From assembly GCF_030246925.1 (NCBI RefSeq), contig NZ_CP126740.1, forward strand, positions 3,162,001 through 3,226,000: a DNA stretch of 64,000 nt, in the 5' to 3' direction. Positions within the stretch are counted from its first letter, which is position 1; every line of letters begins with the position of its first letter. Both the position numbers and the translations under genes were made by a program. The notes under the pieces were generated by a model. It saw nothing but the letters and a program-made list of their open reading frames with translations, was not told the origin of the DNA and did not search any database. The DNA is from Microbacterium sp. zg-Y625 (GTDB taxonomy: Bacteria > Actinomycetota > Actinomycetes > Actinomycetales > Microbacteriaceae). Positions 21,676 to 33,912 of the stretch are shown piece by piece.

Positions 21676-22273
21676 CGTCTTCAGCCCGCTGGCGATCCCG
21701 CGGCTGTCCGGGCCCGCGGAGCACACCGAGCGGGAACGCGCACGGCAGCGCGGTCACGCGATGGGGTACGCCGAAGGCATGCGCGCCGCAGGCGAGGCGG
21801 CGGTGCGCGAAGCGGATCGGGCCGCACGCGAGCGCCGTGCGCAGCACGAAGAACTGCGCACGGCGGCCGCGGCCGCCTTTTCCGCGCTCGAGCGCGCCGC
21901 GGCCTCCTTCACCGAACGTGCCGAGGCCGTGGCCGCGCTCTCCGAGGACCACGTGATGCGCCTGGCCGTCGAGCTCGCCGAGACGATCCTCGCCGCCGAG
22001 GTCGCCGAGGCGACGCGATCGGCGCTCACCGCCTCATCACGGGCGCAGGGGATCCTGGCACCCGGCGACGAGGCGACCGTGGTGCTCAGCCCCCGCGACC
22101 TCGCGACGCTCGACCGGCTGGGGGCGCAACGGCCCGACGGCACGCGGTTCGAGGCCTCCCCCGAGCTGTCCCCCGGCGACGCCGTGGTGCGCCTGCGCGA
22201 CGGCGAGGTGGATCTGCGCGTCGCGACGGCCCTGGCGCGGGCGCGGGCGGCCCTGGCGGAGGTCGCGCCATGA
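21665..22273 (+). CDS. fliH: Flagellar export ATPase regulator FliH
   Basis: 202 residues from ATG 21665 (11-bp overlap with fliG). The long alanine/glutamate coiled coil GYAEGMRAAGEAAVREADRAARERRAQHEEL contains the GxxxA-type repeats usual in FliH. The C-terminal domain is VMRLAVELAETILAAEV and ends just before fliI. It binds FliI and restrains the ATPase. Sequence is poorly conserved; the call rests on pattern and position. Confidence 0.85.
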   Translation: MSPDVFSPLAIPRLSGPAEHTERERARQRGHAMGYAEGMRAAGEAAVREADRAARERRAQHEELRTAAAAAFSALERAAASFTERAEAVAALSEDHVMRLAVELAETILAAEVAEATRSALTASSRAQGILAPGDEATVVLSPRDLATLDRLGAQRPDGTRFEASPELSPGDAVVRLRDGEVDLRVATALARARAALAEVAP

Positions 22274-23580
22274 GTCGGTGGTCGGCGGTGCTCGAGGCGG
22301 CGCTCCCGGAACGCTCGGGCAGCGTCTCGCGGATCCTCGGGCTCAGCGTCGAGGTGCGCGGGCTCACCGCGGCGGTGGGCGACGTCGTCACGATCGCCGG
22401 CGAAGTCGCCGCCGGCGAGGTCGACGCCGAGGTGGTCGCCGCCGAGGAGGGAACCCTCCGATGCATGCCGCTGTCGGCGACGAACGGCATGCGGATCGGC
22501 GCGCGCGCGACGGTCGCGTCGGGCAGGCTCCGCGTGCCGGTGGGACCCCCGGTCCTCGGGCGCATCATCGACGGTCTCGGACGCCCCCTCGACGGGCGCG
22601 GCCCGCTCCAGGCCCGCCGCGTCACCCTCGACCACGACGCCCCTCCGGTCATGGAGCGCGCGCGCATCGCCGCGCCGCTGGCATCGGGCGTGCGGGCGAT
22701 CGACACCCTCAGCCCGATGGGCCGCGGCCAGCGCATGGGCCTGTTCGCCGGCTCGGGTGTGGGCAAGTCGTCGCTGCTGTCGATGATCGCCCGCGGCTCC
22801 GCCGCCGACGTGAACGTCATCGCCCTCGTCGGCGAGCGCGGCCGCGAAGTGCGCGAGTTCATCGAGGACGACCTCGGCGAGGCGGGGCTCGCCCGCTCGG
22901 TCGTGGTGGTGTCCACCTCTGACCAGCCGGCTATGGCGCGCCTGCGAGCGGCGTTCACGGCCACCCGCATCGCCGAGGCGTTCCGCGACGACGGCGTCGA
23001 CGTGATGCTCATGATGGATTCCCTGACGCGCGTGGCGATGGCGCAGCGCGAGATCGGGCTGGCCGCCGGTGAGCCGCCGGCGACGCGCGGCTACCCGCCC
23101 TCGACCTTCCCCGTGCTGGCGAAGCTGCTCGAGCGGGCCGGCAACGACCGCCAGGGCTCCATCACCGGGGTGTACACCGTGCTGGTGGACGGCGACGACC
23201 ACAACGAGCCGGTCGCCGACACCGTGCGCTCGATCCTCGACGGCCACATCGTGCTGGACCGCTCCCTGGCCATCACCGGGCATCACCCCGCCATCGACGT
23301 GCTCGCCTCGGTGTCGCGCCTGGCGGGCAAGGTGACATCCGCCGAGCAGCAGCAGCTCGCCGCGACGCTGCGCACCGTGCTCGCGGCACGCCGCGACGCC
23401 CACGACCTCATCGGCATCGGCGCCTATCAGGCCGGTGCCGATGCGCGAGTGGATGCCGCGATCACCCACCAGCGCGCCCTCGATCAGTTCCTCACCCAGT
23501 CGCTGGACGAGCAGGCCTCGGCCGAGGACTCGTGGCAGCGGCTGAGGTCGCTCGTCGCGGCGTTCGGGGACATCTCGTGA
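22270..23580 (+). CDS. fliI: Flagellum-specific ATP synthase FliI
   Basis: 436 residues. Walker A is GLFAGSGVGKSSLLSMIARG near residue 160, Walker B is VDVMLMMDSLTRVAMAQREIGLAAGEPPATRGYPPS, and the C-terminus matches F1/type III secretion ATPases. As a hexamer it unfolds export cargo. It overlaps fliH (ATGA) and fliJ (GTGA). Confidence 0.97.
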   Translation: MSRWSAVLEAALPERSGSVSRILGLSVEVRGLTAAVGDVVTIAGEVAAGEVDAEVVAAEEGTLRCMPLSATNGMRIGARATVASGRLRVPVGPPVLGRIIDGLGRPLDGRGPLQARRVTLDHDAPPVMERARIAAPLASGVRAIDTLSPMGRGQRMGLFAGSGVGKSSLLSMIARGSAADVNVIALVGERGREVREFIEDDLGEAGLARSVVVVSTSDQPAMARLRAAFTATRIAEAFRDDGVDVMLMMDSLTRVAMAQREIGLAAGEPPATRGYPPSTFPVLAKLLERAGNDRQGSITGVYTVLVDGDDHNEPVADTVRSILDGHIVLDRSLAITGHHPAIDVLASVSRLAGKVTSAEQQQLAATLRTVLAARRDAHDLIGIGAYQAGADARVDAAITHQRALDQFLTQSLDEQASAEDSWQRLRSLVAAFGDIS

Positions 23581-23999
23581 GCCGCCCCTTCCGCCTCGCG
23601 GGGCTGCTGCGCGTGCGCGGCCTGCAGGAGCGCGCCGCCGCCGAGCACCTCTCGCGCGCGGCCCTCGAGCACACGCGCACGCAGGCGCGGGAGCGCGAGC
23701 TGCGCGCCGCCCTGTCGAGCACCTCCGACGTCGCCGTCGACGTCCGCGCGCTGGCCGCCCTCGCCGCCTCGCGCGTGGCCTCGCGCGGCCTGCTGGCCGA
23801 CCTCGCCCTGCTCGGCGACCTGCAGCAGACCACCGTCGACGATGCACGGGCGCGCCACGCAGCCACCCGCGTCGATCAGCGCGGACTCGCGCGGCTCGCC
23901 GACGCGCACACCGAGCGCGAGCGCGCCCACGCGCTGCGCGCCGAGCAGGCGGAACTCGACGAGATCGCCGTCAGACCCCCGACCCAGGAGACGTCATGA
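23577..23999 (+). CDS. fliJ: FliJ-like export stalk protein
   Basis: 140 residues from GTG 23577, overlapping the fliI stop. It is almost entirely charged, alanine-rich coiled coil (RLAGLLRVRGLQERAAAEHLSRAALEHTRTQARERELR). Short sequences of this kind after fliI are FliJ, the stalk that couples the ATPase to the FlhA gate. The call rests on position, size and helix pattern. Confidence 0.8.
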   Translation: MSRPFRLAGLLRVRGLQERAAAEHLSRAALEHTRTQARERELRAALSSTSDVAVDVRALAALAASRVASRGLLADLALLGDLQQTTVDDARARHAATRVDQRGLARLADAHTERERAHALRAEQAELDEIAVRPPTQETS

Positions 24000-25342
24000 G
24001 CGTTGTCACGGCGCTTGCGCGCATCGACGAGATCGAGCAGCGGATCAGGTCGCTGTCGGTCGAACCCGCGATCCCCGCAGCGACCGGGGCGACCACCGCC
24101 GGCGCGACCGCGAGCGCCGGGGCGTTCGCATCGGCCGTCGAGCAGGTCCGCAGCACCCTGGCGCTCGGGGACGGCACCGTCACAGGCGAAGACATCGTCG
24201 CCCAGGCCGAGAAGTACCTCGGCGTGCCCTACGTCTTCGGCGGCGAGGATGCCACGGGCATGGACTGCTCCGGGCTCGTGCAGCGGGTGCTCGCCGACCT
24301 CGGCATCGACGCGCCGCGCGTGGTGCAGGACCAGTCCGGCATCGGGGTCGAGGTCCCCTCGCTCGCCGAAGCACGACCGGGTGACCTGCTCGTCACCAAC
24401 GGCGAGAAGCACATCGTCATCTACGCCGGCGACGGCAAGATCATCCACGCGCCGAGCCCAGGCAAGAACGTCGAGCTGCGCAACAACTACCTCACCGACG
24501 CCGACATCCAGACCATCCGCCGCGTCGTCCCCGAGGCCCAGGCGGCCCCCGCAGCGACCGCGGTCGCGCCGGCAGCCCTCTTCGCCTCGGCCCTGTTCGG
24601 CACGGCCTCCGCGCCGGCATCCGCGCCGGCTTTCGCTGCCGCATCGACCCCGGCGTTCACTGGAGCATCCGCCACCGCGTTCGCCGGCCCGACAGCCGCC
24701 GCCTCGTCGGCCGGGGCGCTGCGCTCGGTCCCCGTTGCCGGCACGTCCGCGGCCGCGTCAGCAGGCGCGGCGGGTGCGGGCACCGACTCCACGGCAGCCG
24801 CCGCGAGCGGCGTCACGGCCCCCGGCACCGCCGACCAGGTCGCCGCGCCACCGTCGCCCGCCGCGGCCGCCTCCCCCGCGCGCACCCCCCTGGCCCAGCA
24901 GATCACCGCCCCCGTGCTCTCGCTGGCGCGCGCCGACGACGGGCAGCACACGCTCACCCTGCGGGTGTCGCCCGAGACCCTGGGCCCTGTCACGGTCACC
25001 GCCCAGATCTCCGGCTCATCCCTCACGATCGAGCTCGCCTCGCCGTCGGACATGGGCCGCGAGGCCCTGCGCGCCCTGCTCGTCGATCTGCGTCGCGACC
25101 TGGCGGCGCTCGCCCCGAACGCGTCGATCCTGCTCGCCGCTGCCGACACCGCGGCGGGCGGCGGCCCGCAGAGCCAGACCGGCGCCTGGTCCGGCGGGTC
25201 CGCGTCCGGCTCGGCCTCGTCGGGTCAGCAGGACGCGCGGCCCGAGACGGCGCCGCACGGCAGCCGCCAGCCTGCCGCCGACGCGCCCCCTGCTGCCCCT
25301 CCGCCCCCCGTGCCCGGTTCGGGCATCGACCTGTTCGCCTGA
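23996..25342 (+). CDS. NlpC/P60 peptidase fused to a FliK-type hook-length control domain
   Basis: 448 residues in one frame. Residues 1-60 are helical and Ala-rich without a signal peptide. Residues 65-175 are an NlpC/P60 peptidoglycan endopeptidase: GVPYVFGGEDATGMDCSGLVQ (nucleophile Cys91), GEKHIVIYAGDG (His139) and IIHAPSPG (His151). Residues 180-310 are an Ala/Pro/Ser-rich linker. Residues about 318-381 match the FliK C-terminal (Flg_hook) domain: TLRVSPETLGPVTVTAQISG and LRALLVDLRRDLAAL. The position between fliJ and flgD is the standard fliK slot. It is probably exported through the flagellar gate, measuring hook length and opening the wall for the rod. Confidence 0.88.
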   Translation: MSVVTALARIDEIEQRIRSLSVEPAIPAATGATTAGATASAGAFASAVEQVRSTLALGDGTVTGEDIVAQAEKYLGVPYVFGGEDATGMDCSGLVQRVLADLGIDAPRVVQDQSGIGVEVPSLAEARPGDLLVTNGEKHIVIYAGDGKIIHAPSPGKNVELRNNYLTDADIQTIRRVVPEAQAAPAATAVAPAALFASALFGTASAPASAPAFAAASTPAFTGASATAFAGPTAAASSAGALRSVPVAGTSAAASAGAAGAGTDSTAAAASGVTAPGTADQVAAPPSPAAAASPARTPLAQQITAPVLSLARADDGQHTLTLRVSPETLGPVTVTAQISGSSLTIELASPSDMGREALRALLVDLRRDLAALAPNASILLAAADTAAGGGPQSQTGAWSGGSASGSASSGQQDARPETAPHGSRQPAADAPPAAPPPPVPGSGIDLFA

Positions 25343-25355
25343 CACCGAGGAAGCC

Positions 25356-25769
25356 ATGCCCACCATCGATCCCGTCGCCGCCGTGTCATCGGCGCCCACG
25401 ACCGCGCTCCCCGCCGCCCCCAAGCAGAGCCTCGACAGCGAGGTGTTCCTGCATCTGCTGGTCACGCAGATGAAGAATCAGGACCCCAGCTCGCCGCTGG
25501 ACACCAACGAGATGATGGCGCAGACGACGCAGCTGGCCATGATGGAGCAGCTCACCGCGCTCTCCGACAGCTTCAGCGAGAGCTTCGCGCTGAGCATGCG
25601 CCAGGCCGCGGCCGCGCTCGTCGGGCAGCATGCGTCGTACGTCGACGCCGATGGCGTCACCCAGTCGGGTCTCGTCTCCAAGGTCTCGTTCGAACAGGGC
25701 GTCCCCACCGTCACCATCGGCGACGCCACCGTGCCCCTCGACGCCGTCTCCGGCGTCACCGCTTCCTGA
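25356..25769 (+). CDS. flgD: Flagellar hook capping protein FlgD
   Basis: 137 residues, ATG 25356 with GAGGAAG upstream. The signature LDSEVFLHLLVTQMKNQDPSSPLDTNEMMAQTTQLAMMEQL is the FlgD N-terminal domain. A short beta part with a GLVSKVSFEQG strand follows; the larger C-terminal domains of enteric FlgD are missing, as is usual in Gram-positives. Scaffold for hook assembly. Confidence 0.94.
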   Translation: MPTIDPVAAVSSAPTTALPAAPKQSLDSEVFLHLLVTQMKNQDPSSPLDTNEMMAQTTQLAMMEQLTALSDSFSESFALSMRQAAAALVGQHASYVDADGVTQSGLVSKVSFEQGVPTVTIGDATVPLDAVSGVTAS

Positions 25770-25792: not shown

Positions 25793-26950
25793 ATGCTCCG
25801 TTCGCTCTACGCCGGGATCTCCGGCCTCCGCTCGCACCAGACCATGCTCGACGTCACGGGTAACAACATCGCGAACGTCAACACCGTCGGGTTCAAGGCG
25901 GGTTCCGTCCAGTTCCAGGACACGCTGTCGCAGATCGTGCAGAACTCCCGCACGCCGCAGGCCGACGCCGGCGGCACGAACGCCGCCCAGGTGGGCCTCG
26001 GCACGCAGGTCGCCGGCATCCGCACGAACTTCACCCAGGGCTCCCGGCAGGCCACCGGCGTCGCCACCGACCTGATGATCGCCGGCGACGGGTTCTTCGT
26101 CGTGCGCAACGGCGCCGAGACGCTGTACACGCGCAACGGCGCGTTCTCGTTCGACGCCTCCGGCCGCATGGTGACCGGCGACGGTGCCCTCGTGCAGGGA
26201 TGGACGGCCGCGGACGGCGTCATCACGACCGGCAGCCCGGTCGGCGACATCTCGCTGCCCGTCGGCGCCACCTCCCCCGCCCAGGCTACGAGCTCCGCCA
26301 GCGTGAAGGGGAACCTGCCGTCCGACGCCGCCGTCGGCGAACAGCTCGTCCGCGACATCACGGTCTACGACGCCCAGGGGGCGGCGCGTCAGCTGGCGCT
26401 CACCTTCACCCGCACCGGCGCGGGCTGGGACGTCACCGACGGTGCCGCGACGACGTCGCTCGCCTTCGCCGACGGCAAGCCGACCGGTGCGGCCTCGATC
26501 GTCAGCGGCGGCGTCGCCGTCGACCTCTCGCAGGTGACCGGCTTCGCCGATCTGCGCACGGTCGCGCTCACCGGCCAGGACGGACGCGCCCCCGGCAGCC
26601 TCGTGTCGTACACGATCTCGGCCGACGGCAGCCTGATCGGGTCGTTCAGCAACGGCGCATCGGATGTGCTGGCGCAGGTCGCGCTGGCGACGTTCGACAA
26701 CCCCGAAGGGCTGGAGAAGACCGGCTCGTCGCAGTACCGCTCCGGCGCCAACTCCGGCGCACCCACCGTGGGCGCCGCCGGGGCCGATGGCTTCGGCGAC
26801 CTCGCGAGCGGCTCACTCGAGATGTCGAACGTCGACCTCTCGCAGGAGTTCACGAACCTCATCGTCGCCCAGCGCGGCTTCCAGGCGAACGCGCGCATCA
26901 TCACCACGAGCGACGAGGTGCTGCAGGAGCTGACCAACCTCAAGCGATGA
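25793..26950 (+). CDS. flgE: Flagellar hook protein FlgE
   Basis: 385 residues. The start is MLRSLYAGISGLRSHQTMLDVTGNNIANVNTVGFKAGSVQFQD; the middle is GNLPSDAAVGEQLVRDITVYDAQG; the C-terminus is LEMSNVDLSQEFTNLIVAQRGFQANARIITTSDEVLQEL. It is the universal-joint subunit. No separate flgF/flgG gene appears in the window, so distal rod proteins may be encoded elsewhere or be covered by this one. Confidence 0.95.
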   Translation: MLRSLYAGISGLRSHQTMLDVTGNNIANVNTVGFKAGSVQFQDTLSQIVQNSRTPQADAGGTNAAQVGLGTQVAGIRTNFTQGSRQATGVATDLMIAGDGFFVVRNGAETLYTRNGAFSFDASGRMVTGDGALVQGWTAADGVITTGSPVGDISLPVGATSPAQATSSASVKGNLPSDAAVGEQLVRDITVYDAQGAARQLALTFTRTGAGWDVTDGAATTSLAFADGKPTGAASIVSGGVAVDLSQVTGFADLRTVALTGQDGRAPGSLVSYTISADGSLIGSFSNGASDVLAQVALATFDNPEGLEKTGSSQYRSGANSGAPTVGAAGADGFGDLASGSLEMSNVDLSQEFTNLIVAQRGFQANARIITTSDEVLQELTNLKR

Positions 26951-32059: not shown

Positions 32060-32821
32060 GTGTTCATCCCCATCGACTACGCCTGGCTCGAGGCCACCGG
32101 CCTCGCGGCGGTGCGCACGACCGCATTCCTCTTCATCGCCCCGCCCTTCTCGTACGGCGCCTTCCCCGCCCGCATCAAGGCCATGCTGGGGGTGGGGCTC
32201 GCCGTCGTCGTCAGTGGCAGTGTGGCGGCGCCGTACGAGGTGCTCGACACGGCGGGCTTCCTCGGGGCGCTGGTCATCCAGGTGGTCGTCGGGGCGCTGC
32301 TGGGACTGCTCGTGCTGGTCTGCTTCTCGGCGGTGCAGTCCGCCGGCAGTCTCATCGACGTCTTCGGCGGCTTCCAGCTCGCGCAGGCGTTCGATCCCCA
32401 GATGCAGGTGAACGGCGCGCAGTTCACCCGCCTGTTCCAGATCACGGCGCTGGCCCTGCTCTTCGCCTCGAACGGCTACCAGCTGATCCTCGCCGGGCTC
32501 GTCCGCAGCTTCACCGCCGTCCCCGTCACCGGGATGCTGGATCTCAGCCGTCCCGCCGACCTGATCATCGACACCGTCTCGCAGATGATGCTCTCCGCCG
32601 TGCAGATCGCCGGTCCCCTGCTGCTCGTGCTCTTCCTCGCCGACGTGGGACTGGGTCTCATCACCCGCGTCGCCCCCGCGCTCAACGCCTTCGCCATGGG
32701 CTTCCCGGTGAAGATCCTCCTCACCTTCCTGCTGGCCGGCAGCGTCGTCCTCGCTCTGCCCACGATCGTCGGCGCCCTCGCCGAGGACGCCCTCGGCCTC
32801 TTGACGGGGGGCACGCGATGA
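32060..32821 (+). CDS. fliR: Flagellar export channel protein FliR
   Basis: 253 residues, GTG start 1 bp after the fliQ stop. Six hydrophobic segments, with IKAMLGVGLAVVVSG, VFGGFQLAQAFDPQMQVNGAQFTRLFQITALALLFASNGYQLIL and NAFAMGFPVKILLTFLL, all typical of FliR. Pore component. Confidence 0.96.
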   Translation: MFIPIDYAWLEATGLAAVRTTAFLFIAPPFSYGAFPARIKAMLGVGLAVVVSGSVAAPYEVLDTAGFLGALVIQVVVGALLGLLVLVCFSAVQSAGSLIDVFGGFQLAQAFDPQMQVNGAQFTRLFQITALALLFASNGYQLILAGLVRSFTAVPVTGMLDLSRPADLIIDTVSQMMLSAVQIAGPLLLVLFLADVGLGLITRVAPALNAFAMGFPVKILLTFLLAGSVVLALPTIVGALAEDALGLLTGGTR

Positions 32822-33912
32822 GCGGCGGCGGCGACTCCGGGGAGCGCACCGAGAAAGCCACCGACCGGCGGCTGCGCGAGGCACGGCGCAAGGGCAAGCT
32901 GACGCGCAGCCAGGACTTCACCGCCTGGCTCGGCATCGCCGCCGCGGGTGCGATGATGGCGACGGCGATCGGCGCGGCCGCCGACGTCGGCGGCGAGCAG
33001 TTCGTCGCCATCACCTCGGTCATCCGCAATCCCGACCCGCAGGCGGCGGTCGCGGTGATGCAGTCCGCCCTGGCATCCATCGCGTCGGTGCTCGTCCCCC
33101 TGCTCGGGGCGGTCGCGGTCGTGACGCTCATCGGCGCCGTCGCCCAGGGTGGCGTGCACCTGCGCGGCATCCCCGCCCGCTTCGAGCAGTTCAACGTGCT
33201 CAACGGCGTGAAGCGCATCTTCGGCGTGCAGGCCCTCTGGGAGGGGGTCAAGTCGCTGCTGAAGACCGCCGCGATCGGCCTGTCGCTCTACGCGATCATC
33301 GCGGGCCTCGTCCCGGTGCTCACCGCGAGCGGCTCCCATTCGATCGCGCACCTGCTCGAGGTGGCATCCTCGGGCGTCGCCTCGCTGCTGATCACGGCCG
33401 TGGCGGTGGGGATCGCCCTGGCCGTCCTCGACGTGCTCGTCGTCAGGCGCCGCAACCAGAAGCACACCCGCATGACCAAGAAAGAAGCCCGGGACGAGCA
33501 CAAGCGCAGCGAAGGCGACCCGCTCATCCGCGGCCAGCGCCGGGCCCGCCAGCTCGCCCTCAGCCGCAACCGCATGATCGCAGCGGTGGGCGACGCCGAC
33601 GTCGTGCTGGTGAACCCCACGCACGTCGCCGTCGCGCTGCGCTACGAGCCGGGCAAGTCCGCTCCGCGGGTCGTGGCGAAGGGAAGCGGGCTCATCGCCG
33701 AGCGCATCCGCGACCGCGCGACCGAGGCCGGCGTGCCCCTCGTGCGCGACATCCCGCTCGCCCGCGCCCTGCACGGGGCCTGTGCGCTGGGACAGGAGAT
33801 CCCCGCCGATCTGTACACCGCCGTCGCCCAGGTGCTGGTCTTCGTCGACACCCTCAAACGTCGCGGCTCCGCCCGCGGCGTGCACACCCTCCCACAGAGG
33901 AAGAACACATGA
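32818..33912 (+). CDS. flhB: Flagellar export switch protein FlhB
   Basis: 364 residues. The N-terminus GERTEKATDRRLREARRKGKLTRSQDF is the FlhB signature. Four membrane segments are followed by a cytoplasmic domain with the self-cleaving NPTH motif (Asn266). Cleavage switches export from rod/hook to filament proteins once FliK signals hook completion. Confidence 0.97.
   Translation: MSGGGDSGERTEKATDRRLREARRKGKLTRSQDFTAWLGIAAAGAMMATAIGAAADVGGEQFVAITSVIRNPDPQAAVAVMQSALASIASVLVPLLGAVAVVTLIGAVAQGGVHLRGIPARFEQFNVLNGVKRIFGVQALWEGVKSLLKTAAIGLSLYAIIAGLVPVLTASGSHSIAHLLEVASSGVASLLITAVAVGIALAVLDVLVVRRRNQKHTRMTKKEARDEHKRSEGDPLIRGQRRARQLALSRNRMIAAVGDADVVLVNPTHVAVALRYEPGKSAPRVVAKGSGLIAERIRDRATEAGVPLVRDIPLARALHGACALGQEIPADLYTAVAQVLVFVDTLKRRGSARGVHTLPQRKNT

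Follow-up and report, generated by a model that had tools for sequence, protein, structure and literature searches.

A flagellar NlpC/P60–FliK fusion protein of Microbacterium and a wall-hydrolase slot beside fliK in Actinomycetota

The flagellar cluster of Microbacterium sp. zg-Y625 (Actinomycetota; Microbacteriaceae) encodes a protein of 448 aa in which an NlpC/P60 (C40) peptidase domain and the C-terminal switch domain of the hook-length protein FliK lie in a single open frame. The wider finding is a slot for a wall hydrolase beside fliK in actinobacterial flagellar loci, and the fusion appears to be the fused version of that neighbouring wall-enzyme gene; the unfused neighbour-gene form is much commoner than the fusion. 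What the fusion itself contributes is better described as a probable replacement of the N-terminal half of the ruler at constant length. The analysis started from a window of 64,000 nucleotides (assembly GCF_030246925.1, contig NZ_CP126740.1, positions 3,162,001 to 3,226,000 of the forward strand), which is part of a 3.26-Mb single-contig genome. The features referred to below, in window positions, are:

22270..23580, + strand: fliI (ATP-synt_ab 8.1e-87, T3SS_ATPase_C 3.5e-21)
23577..23999, + strand: fliJ, assigned from position plus a Pfam FliJ match below the cut-off (E 1e-4); its stop overlaps the fusion start
23996..25342, + strand: NlpC/P60-FliK fusion protein, 448 aa; single open frame, both Pfam domains above cut-off
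24002..24058, + strand: predicted N-terminal helix (AlphaFold2), residues 3-21, containing ARIDEIEQRIRSL; common to slot proteins whatever their catalytic domain
24125..24139, + strand: FxxxΦ motif FASAV, residues 44-48, candidate FlhB gate recognition motif
24182..24532, + strand: C40 peptidase domain, about residues 63-179 (Pfam 76-163, match to our own HMM, Foldseek matches to NlpC/P60 structures)
24266..24268, + strand: Cys91, predicted catalytic nucleophile (118/118 aligned slot C40 domains, 39/39 fused proteins)
24410..24412, + strand: His139, predicted catalytic residue (118/118 and 39/39 likewise)
24446..24448, + strand: His151, predicted third catalytic residue (His in 83/118, Asp in 21/118, others in the remaining)
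24536..24889, + strand: disordered Ala/Pro-rich linker, residues 181-298, with FASAL at 196-200 (pLDDT < 50 at 191-282)
24896..25135, + strand: FliK C-terminal switch (T3S4) domain, residues 301-380, with PETLG (Pfam Flg_hook, Foldseek, phmmer)
25356..25769, + strand: flgD, hook cap (Pfam FlgD 2.3e-16)
25793..26950, + strand: flgE, hook (Pfam Flg_bbr_C, LlgE_F_G_D1, Flg_bb_rod)
32818..33912, + strand: flhB, with the NPTH autocleavage motif at residue 266 (single Bac_export_2 match in the window set)

The frame is unbroken from the ATG at 23996 to the TGA at 25342, and its codon GC (0.73, 0.63 and 0.91 at positions 1, 2 and 3) fits a coding frame, since such a pattern is expected in high-GC DNA. 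A Pfam scan of the protein placed NLPC_P60 (PF00877) at residues 76-163 (E 7e-19; 68.2 bits, cut-off 23) and Flg_hook (PF02120) at residues 312-371 (E 5.7e-9; 36.1 bits, cut-off 29.8), and at E 0.01 neither GH73 nor any other glycosidase was among the matches. An earlier, sequence-only reading had described one frame combining an NlpC/P60 peptidase, with Cys91, His139 and His151, and a FliK C-terminal domain, and had proposed a domain search; this search returned both families above the Pfam cut-off, the three residues are exactly where that reading had placed them, and fold matches to 2rrl and 5cuk agree with the FliK assignment. On the side of the C40 peptidases the protein has a profile match above the curated cut-off, a Cys-His-polar triad and a papain-like NlpC fold. 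On the side of FliK it has the Flg_hook switch domain and a gene in the order fliJ-fliK-flgD-flgE; the place of the FliK N-terminus is taken by a helix and the C40 domain, with length alone kept, FliK N-termini being themselves poorly conserved. The switch domain matched 2rrl in phmmer (E 6.2e-5). The NCBIfam model PRK10118, built on enterobacterial FliK, gave E 0.12 (11.8 bits, cut-off 396), and the best NCBIfam match of the fusion was RipC (54.7 bits, cut-off 425). Member proteins already carry the label 'NlpC/P60 family protein', with both Pfam domains, in protein databases.

AlphaFold2, run with 39 fused sequences (mean pLDDT 67.1, pTM 0.39), predicted two confident regions at about residues 64-180 and 299-380 with a disordered linker between them, an N-terminal helix at 3-21, and a second helix at 39-55 that contains the FxxxΦ motif. 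These 39 sequences (set A1) are the window protein together with 38 of the 43 further proteins that have both domains, with four near copies of P0017 and P0053 omitted. In a Foldseek search of the model against the PDB the top matches were mostly NlpC/P60 enzymes; those to the C-domain of Salmonella FliK (2rrl; E 5.8e-5, a poor superposition with rmsd 24.5 over 171 columns) and to the PscP switch domain (5cuk; E 1.3e-3, rmsd 3.6 over 84) were weaker.

The gene order is fliI-fliJ-fusion-flgD-flgE, with motA and motB also downstream, and an ATGA at 23996 forms the overlap of the fusion start with the fliJ stop. The frame thus sits between fliJ and flgD/flgE, in the fliK position that the earlier reading had assigned to it, and FlhB is the expected partner of its switch domain. 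The fusion is the sole NlpC/P60 match of the window genome. The FlgJ rod-binding domain (PF10135) had no match in this genome and was matched in one of the 25 genomes searched, which bears out the claim that a hydrolase other than FlgJ is tied to FliK here.

With the window FliI as bait (E <= 1e-80), positive genomes numbered 74 of 295 in the genus, 115 of 398 in the family, 97 of 396 in the order and 57 of 396 in the phylum, in overlapping sets. From these, 200 regions downstream of fliI were sampled (60 each from genus, family and order, 20 from the phylum) and joined with the window, members of one genus or family being non-independent samples; locus classes were assigned by HMMs seeded from the window, except for the SLT HMM, which was seeded from L159. 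A C40 and/or SLT wall-hydrolase domain lies just after fliJ at 127 of the 201 loci, as C40 alone (77), C40 and SLT in one ORF (33), SLT alone (9) or C40 fused to FliK (8), so that at 119/201 the hydrolase (C40, SLT or both) has a gene of its own. These separate genes mostly begin with an ATGA overlap. The make-up varies with distance from the window: the genus (61 loci with the window) has 7 fused, 4 separate C40, 13 enzyme-less remnants and 37 without a slot gene; the family (60) has 49 C40, 1 fused and 10 without; the order (60) has 27 with C40 and SLT in one ORF, 23 C40, 2 SLT and 8 without; and the phylum (20) has 6 C40 plus SLT, 7 SLT, 1 C40 and 2 without, with four left unclassified. Among the 118 C40 loci, 113 have the C40 domain between matches to fliJ and the FliK switch domain; of the other five, four are without a switch-domain match and one without a fliJ match. 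In a Pfam scan of 42 slot and neighbouring proteins, NLPC_P60 was found in 29 and SLT in 29. At two loci (L233, L236) SLT precedes C40 in the one ORF, the reverse of the other 31 C40 plus SLT loci. A further locus, L301 (WNZI01000007.1), is titled Vibrio cholerae strain 35D and carries an actinobacterial-type flagellar cluster with a separate C40 gene and an FlgE 65% identical to that of the window; this record is probably mislabelled or contaminated.

Most slot proteins begin where fliJ overlaps, and their common N-terminal pattern, MS..a..RI.eIq..i..L, is followed by FxxxΦ; across an alignment of 42, one Arg is more than 90% conserved. In a set of 117 C40 slot proteins, from which L235 is absent because it has no fliJ match, 105 have R[IVM]xx[IL] within the first 45 residues, against a mean of 4.1 and a maximum of 10 after shuffling. 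FxxxΦ lies between residue 21 and the C40 domain in 116 of them, against a mean of 18.6 and a maximum of 30 after shuffling. The same Arg motif and FxxxΦ are found in 9/9 and 8/9 of the SLT-only slot proteins, and in 13/13 and 13/13 of the enzyme-less remnants. Hydropathy averaged over 12 residues peaks, within the N-terminal 40, at 1.53 in C40 slot proteins and 0.98 in the window protein, a modest hydrophobic stretch that argues against a Sec signal in the C40 slot proteins. Salmonella FlgD has 36-FLTLL-40 as its gate recognition motif, and small non-polar residues near the N-terminus are also required; for early substrates of this organism the motif and the upstream small non-polar residues drive export (PMC8983047). 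The FxxxΦ of the slot proteins resembles such a rod/hook export signal. In the window, FASAV is preceded by the N-terminal MSVVTALA, and motifs read by eye in FlgB (FEDAL), FliE (FAQSI) and FlgD (FLHLL) are comparable. FliKs without a hydrolase of their own have FxxxΦ at residues 15-80 as well, in 98/103 separate FliKs (shuffled mean 10.7) and 72/74 C40-less FliKs (shuffled mean 10.6). At the fused loci the hydrolase's FxxxΦ is kept in 8/8 and a linker FxxxΦ is present in 2/8; the fusion therefore most likely leaves by the N-terminal signal of the hydrolase, the signal being assigned here by motif.

The distance from the start to the switch domain is where fused and free proteins can be compared directly. 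In the 39 fused proteins it is 259-365 residues (median 316), like that of related free FliKs: the C40-less FliKs of the genus have a median of 315.5 (quartiles 301-332; 48 loci), and the separate FliKs of genus and family a median of 351.5 (52 loci), or 299.5 for the four of the genus alone. Two loci, L156 (separate) and L056 (C40-less), with an apparent switch position at or below 150, were taken to have misassigned starts and excluded from the counts of lengths and FliK motifs, and L079 and L088, whose FliK start is uncertain, were retained in the length counts. The sum of both separate genes is 461-885 (median 587; 52 loci). Read-through fusion of two whole genes can be rejected, as the largest fused value (365) is smaller than the smallest sum (461; 39 against 52). 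As the fused spacing equals that of free FliK, the N-terminal half of FliK was replaced and not added to, and the C40 module would have taken over roughly 180 residues of this former half.

The same length difference bears on the possibility that a sequencing or assembly frameshift joined two genes, for which we found no support. Both domains occur in 44 of the 120 homologues listed, the window's own included, and the fused architecture stands at 8 of the 201 flagellar loci, window included, in different genomes; the survey across actinobacteria that had been suggested thus found the fusion repeatedly. With this recurrence, and with an N-terminus-to-switch length that is not the sum of two genes, a frameshift or chimera is ruled out and its chance is as good as nil. 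Fused relatives in the protein search, from which alone the species names are taken, include Microbacterium sp. zg.Y909, Sa4CUA7, PA5 and LjRoot45 and M. sediminis, and fused forms at a greater distance come from Gryllotalpicola and Ruicaihuangia; a scan with FlgE classed 0 of 80 named loci as fused and 8 as incomplete. At two other loci a frameshift or assembly error is possible: the L056 frame that continues from the fliJ overlap stops short of the switch domain of FliK, and the C40 tail of L141 resembles a shifted frame.

On a tree of 174 loci built from FliJ, FlgD and FlgE, parsimony gave three changes from separate to fused (SEP to FUS) and one loss within the fused clade, which suggests three separate fusions; in a quick ML tree of 81 loci the fused state requires 4 gains or losses. 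L088 was labelled NONE in both trees, as were the SLT-only L175 and L192 in the parsimony tree. One older fusion that was split later would be an alternative, as trees in which fused groups are joined survive AU tests (p-AU 0.056 for the window clade with L072, 0.12 with L109).

In peptidoglycan, the bond that NlpC/P60 enzymes usually cleave is the one between D-Glu and the diamino acid. The predicted catalytic Cys and His are invariant in all 118 slot C40 domains and all 39 fused proteins, in which the triad is CHH (30/39) or CHE (9/39). The C40 domain of the fusion is under purifying selection: NG86 dN/dS was 0.102, 0.104 and 0.087 in three pairs, and 0.175, 0.262 and 0.344 for the FliK domain of the same pairs. 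In the seven fused genomes searched, the fusion is the one NlpC/P60 match of each. Over the window and 34 congeners, all flagellated, 8 of 35 genomes had an NlpC/P60 match, which in 7 of the 8 is the fusion.

The enzyme is absent at 50 of the 61 sampled fliI loci of the genus, 13 of which keep an enzyme-less remnant. Three loci nested in the fused clade (L044-L046; one of the three in the ML tree) have lost it. Relocation within C40-less congeners was not seen for NlpC/P60: 27 of the 28 flagellated genomes without a slot C40 had no match anywhere in the genome, and the enzyme is therefore dispensable for having a flagellar cluster. Among 67 of the 75 C40-less FliKs no other hydrolase domain was found, Flg_hook being the sole match at E 0.001. 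Other enzyme classes were looked for, among the 25 commonest of 50 families, in the ORFs that a rough gene caller, which overlooked fliK, predicted in two 21-kb C40-less clusters; a replacement hydrolase may be present in C40-less clusters or elsewhere in those genomes. The 13 genus remnants (L075-L080, L082, L083, L085, L086, L088, L092 and L093) are 108-128 aa long and lack the C40 domain, but have the N-terminal motif and FxxxΦ and, towards the C-terminus, an LQTLF segment; homologues are labelled hypothetical, one of them in Microbacterium foliorum (P0129). The LQTLF segment resembles the C-terminal tail of the unfused slot protein, for which AlphaFold2 predicts a C-terminal helix at 226-246. 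In the ML tree the remnant L093 pairs with L090, which has no slot gene, and eight remnants have L084, likewise without one, as their sister. The tree is compatible with an order in which the enzyme was lost first and the slot gene afterwards.

The reading we favour, and hold to be fairly probable, is that a type-III-exported FliK delivers a wall endopeptidase to the tip of the rod and hook, cutting early and measuring later; we infer the export route, the hydrolytic activity, the timing and the place of action. A neighbouring wall-hydrolase gene would have merged with fliK in a Microbacterium-type actinobacterium. The fusion would be made in the cytoplasm and leave through the flagellar type III gate among the early substrates of the rod/hook class, with the hydrolase's N-terminal helix and FxxxΦ as the export signal. 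Copies exported while the rod is still within the wall would refold at the tip, cut peptidoglycan stem peptides and open a path, and later copies, with the hook growing outside, would serve as tape measure, until the C-terminal domain flips FlhB to late secretion and so also ends further release of enzyme. Against this reading stand the loci without C40 (50/61 in the genus, and 10/60 and 8/60 classed 'none' in family and order), and the expectation that, since used FliK is set free, a large part of the enzyme would be lost to the medium. A coupling of wall opening to hook-length sensing, as proposed in the sequence-only reading, is possible but not specific to the fusion; since the unfused form is far commoner (119/201), any coupling probably runs via shared export and needs no fusion.

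Cleavage during or after export would let hydrolase and FliK act separately and make the fusion an economical way of producing equal amounts. This accords with separate genes, mostly joined by an ATGA overlap, being the commoner state around the fusion and with a linker that is long, disordered and poorly conserved in sequence, but the N-terminus-to-switch spacing is held at the free-FliK value, which would be needless if the parts were separated before measuring, and we regard cleavage as rather unlikely. The constant length could instead mean that the C40 domain serves chiefly as tape, as a spacer within the ruler whose enzymatic activity is irrelevant, and the absence of the enzyme at 50/61 sampled congener loci would fit as well. 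Mere filler needs no active site, however, and the Cys and His are invariant in 39/39 fused proteins and the C40 dN/dS is about 0.1, below that of the FliK domain in 3/3 pairs, which leaves the spacer explanation improbable.

The enzyme might also leave by the flagellar route and act elsewhere, on the outer wall face, in cell separation or on other bacteria, as FliK-type proteins are released outside and the enzyme is dispensable in relatives. Yet the sampled loci, which were found through fliI with hydrolase copies elsewhere lying outside the sample, place the enzyme in the hook-basal-body gene order, and SLT, C40 and both together share the slot and the N-terminus across the phylum; different enzymes behind one slot and one N-terminus point to a basal-body function, and action elsewhere is improbable.

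More tentatively, the slot protein could be an actinobacterial stand-in for FlgJ, a possibility we rate as doubtful, with terminal helices at the growing rod tip and a swappable SLT, C40 or both behind the N-terminal helix. The fusion would then unite rod-tip protein, tape and switch in one molecule, the enzyme domain would be part of the tape, and each length probe would also cut wall. This suggestion draws on the single N-terminal signature across enzymes, the predicted C-terminal helix of the unfused form, the 13 remnants that keep both ends, the 24 of 25 genomes without an FlgJ match and the constant ruler length.

FlgJ of beta- and gamma-proteobacteria, a rod scaffold with a glycosidase, likewise combines a wall hydrolase dedicated to the flagellum with a second flagellar function; it is described as a single protein of two domains in some lineages and as a pair of proteins in others (PMC8517470). 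In contrast to FlgJ, the fusion has a C40 peptidase, FliK as ruler and switch partner, a gene between fliJ and flgD and a genome without a PF10135 match. With canonical FliK (Salmonella) and PscP the fusion shares the C-terminal switch domain and the gene position, but its N-terminal half consists of an export-signal-like helix and the C40 enzyme. Borrelia LTase (BB0259) and Rhodobacter SltF are also flagellum-linked wall enzymes, but separate, and an SLT also occurs in the actinobacterial slot; BB0259 has a predicted lipobox signal peptide, whereas none is apparent in the C40 slot proteins. In contrast to flagellar lytic transglycosylases, the C40 enzyme is expected to cut peptides and not glycans. 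The RipA/RipC-type NlpC/P60 hydrolases of actinobacteria have the same C40 fold and catalytic residues, but the fusion is without an apparent signal peptide, lies in a flagellar operon and is joined to FliK.

In a search of mainly open-access literature by title and opening of the abstract, we found no description of a hydrolase-FliK fusion or of a fliK-adjacent hydrolase slot in actinobacteria. A phylum survey of actinobacterial flagella included FlgJ and CwlQ among its queries, found FlgJ missing from three later classes and asks how a simple rod assembles in thick peptidoglycan; the words 'hydrolase', 'transglycosylase' and 'lytic' are absent from its main text (PMC10746217). The fusion provides a test of the physical-ruler model, because an enzyme domain is placed within the tape with the length unchanged, and it may help explain flagellar passage through the thick Gram-positive wall. 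With a hydrolase slot by fliK, a fused form and natural losses in one genus, the wall-crossing question becomes directly testable.
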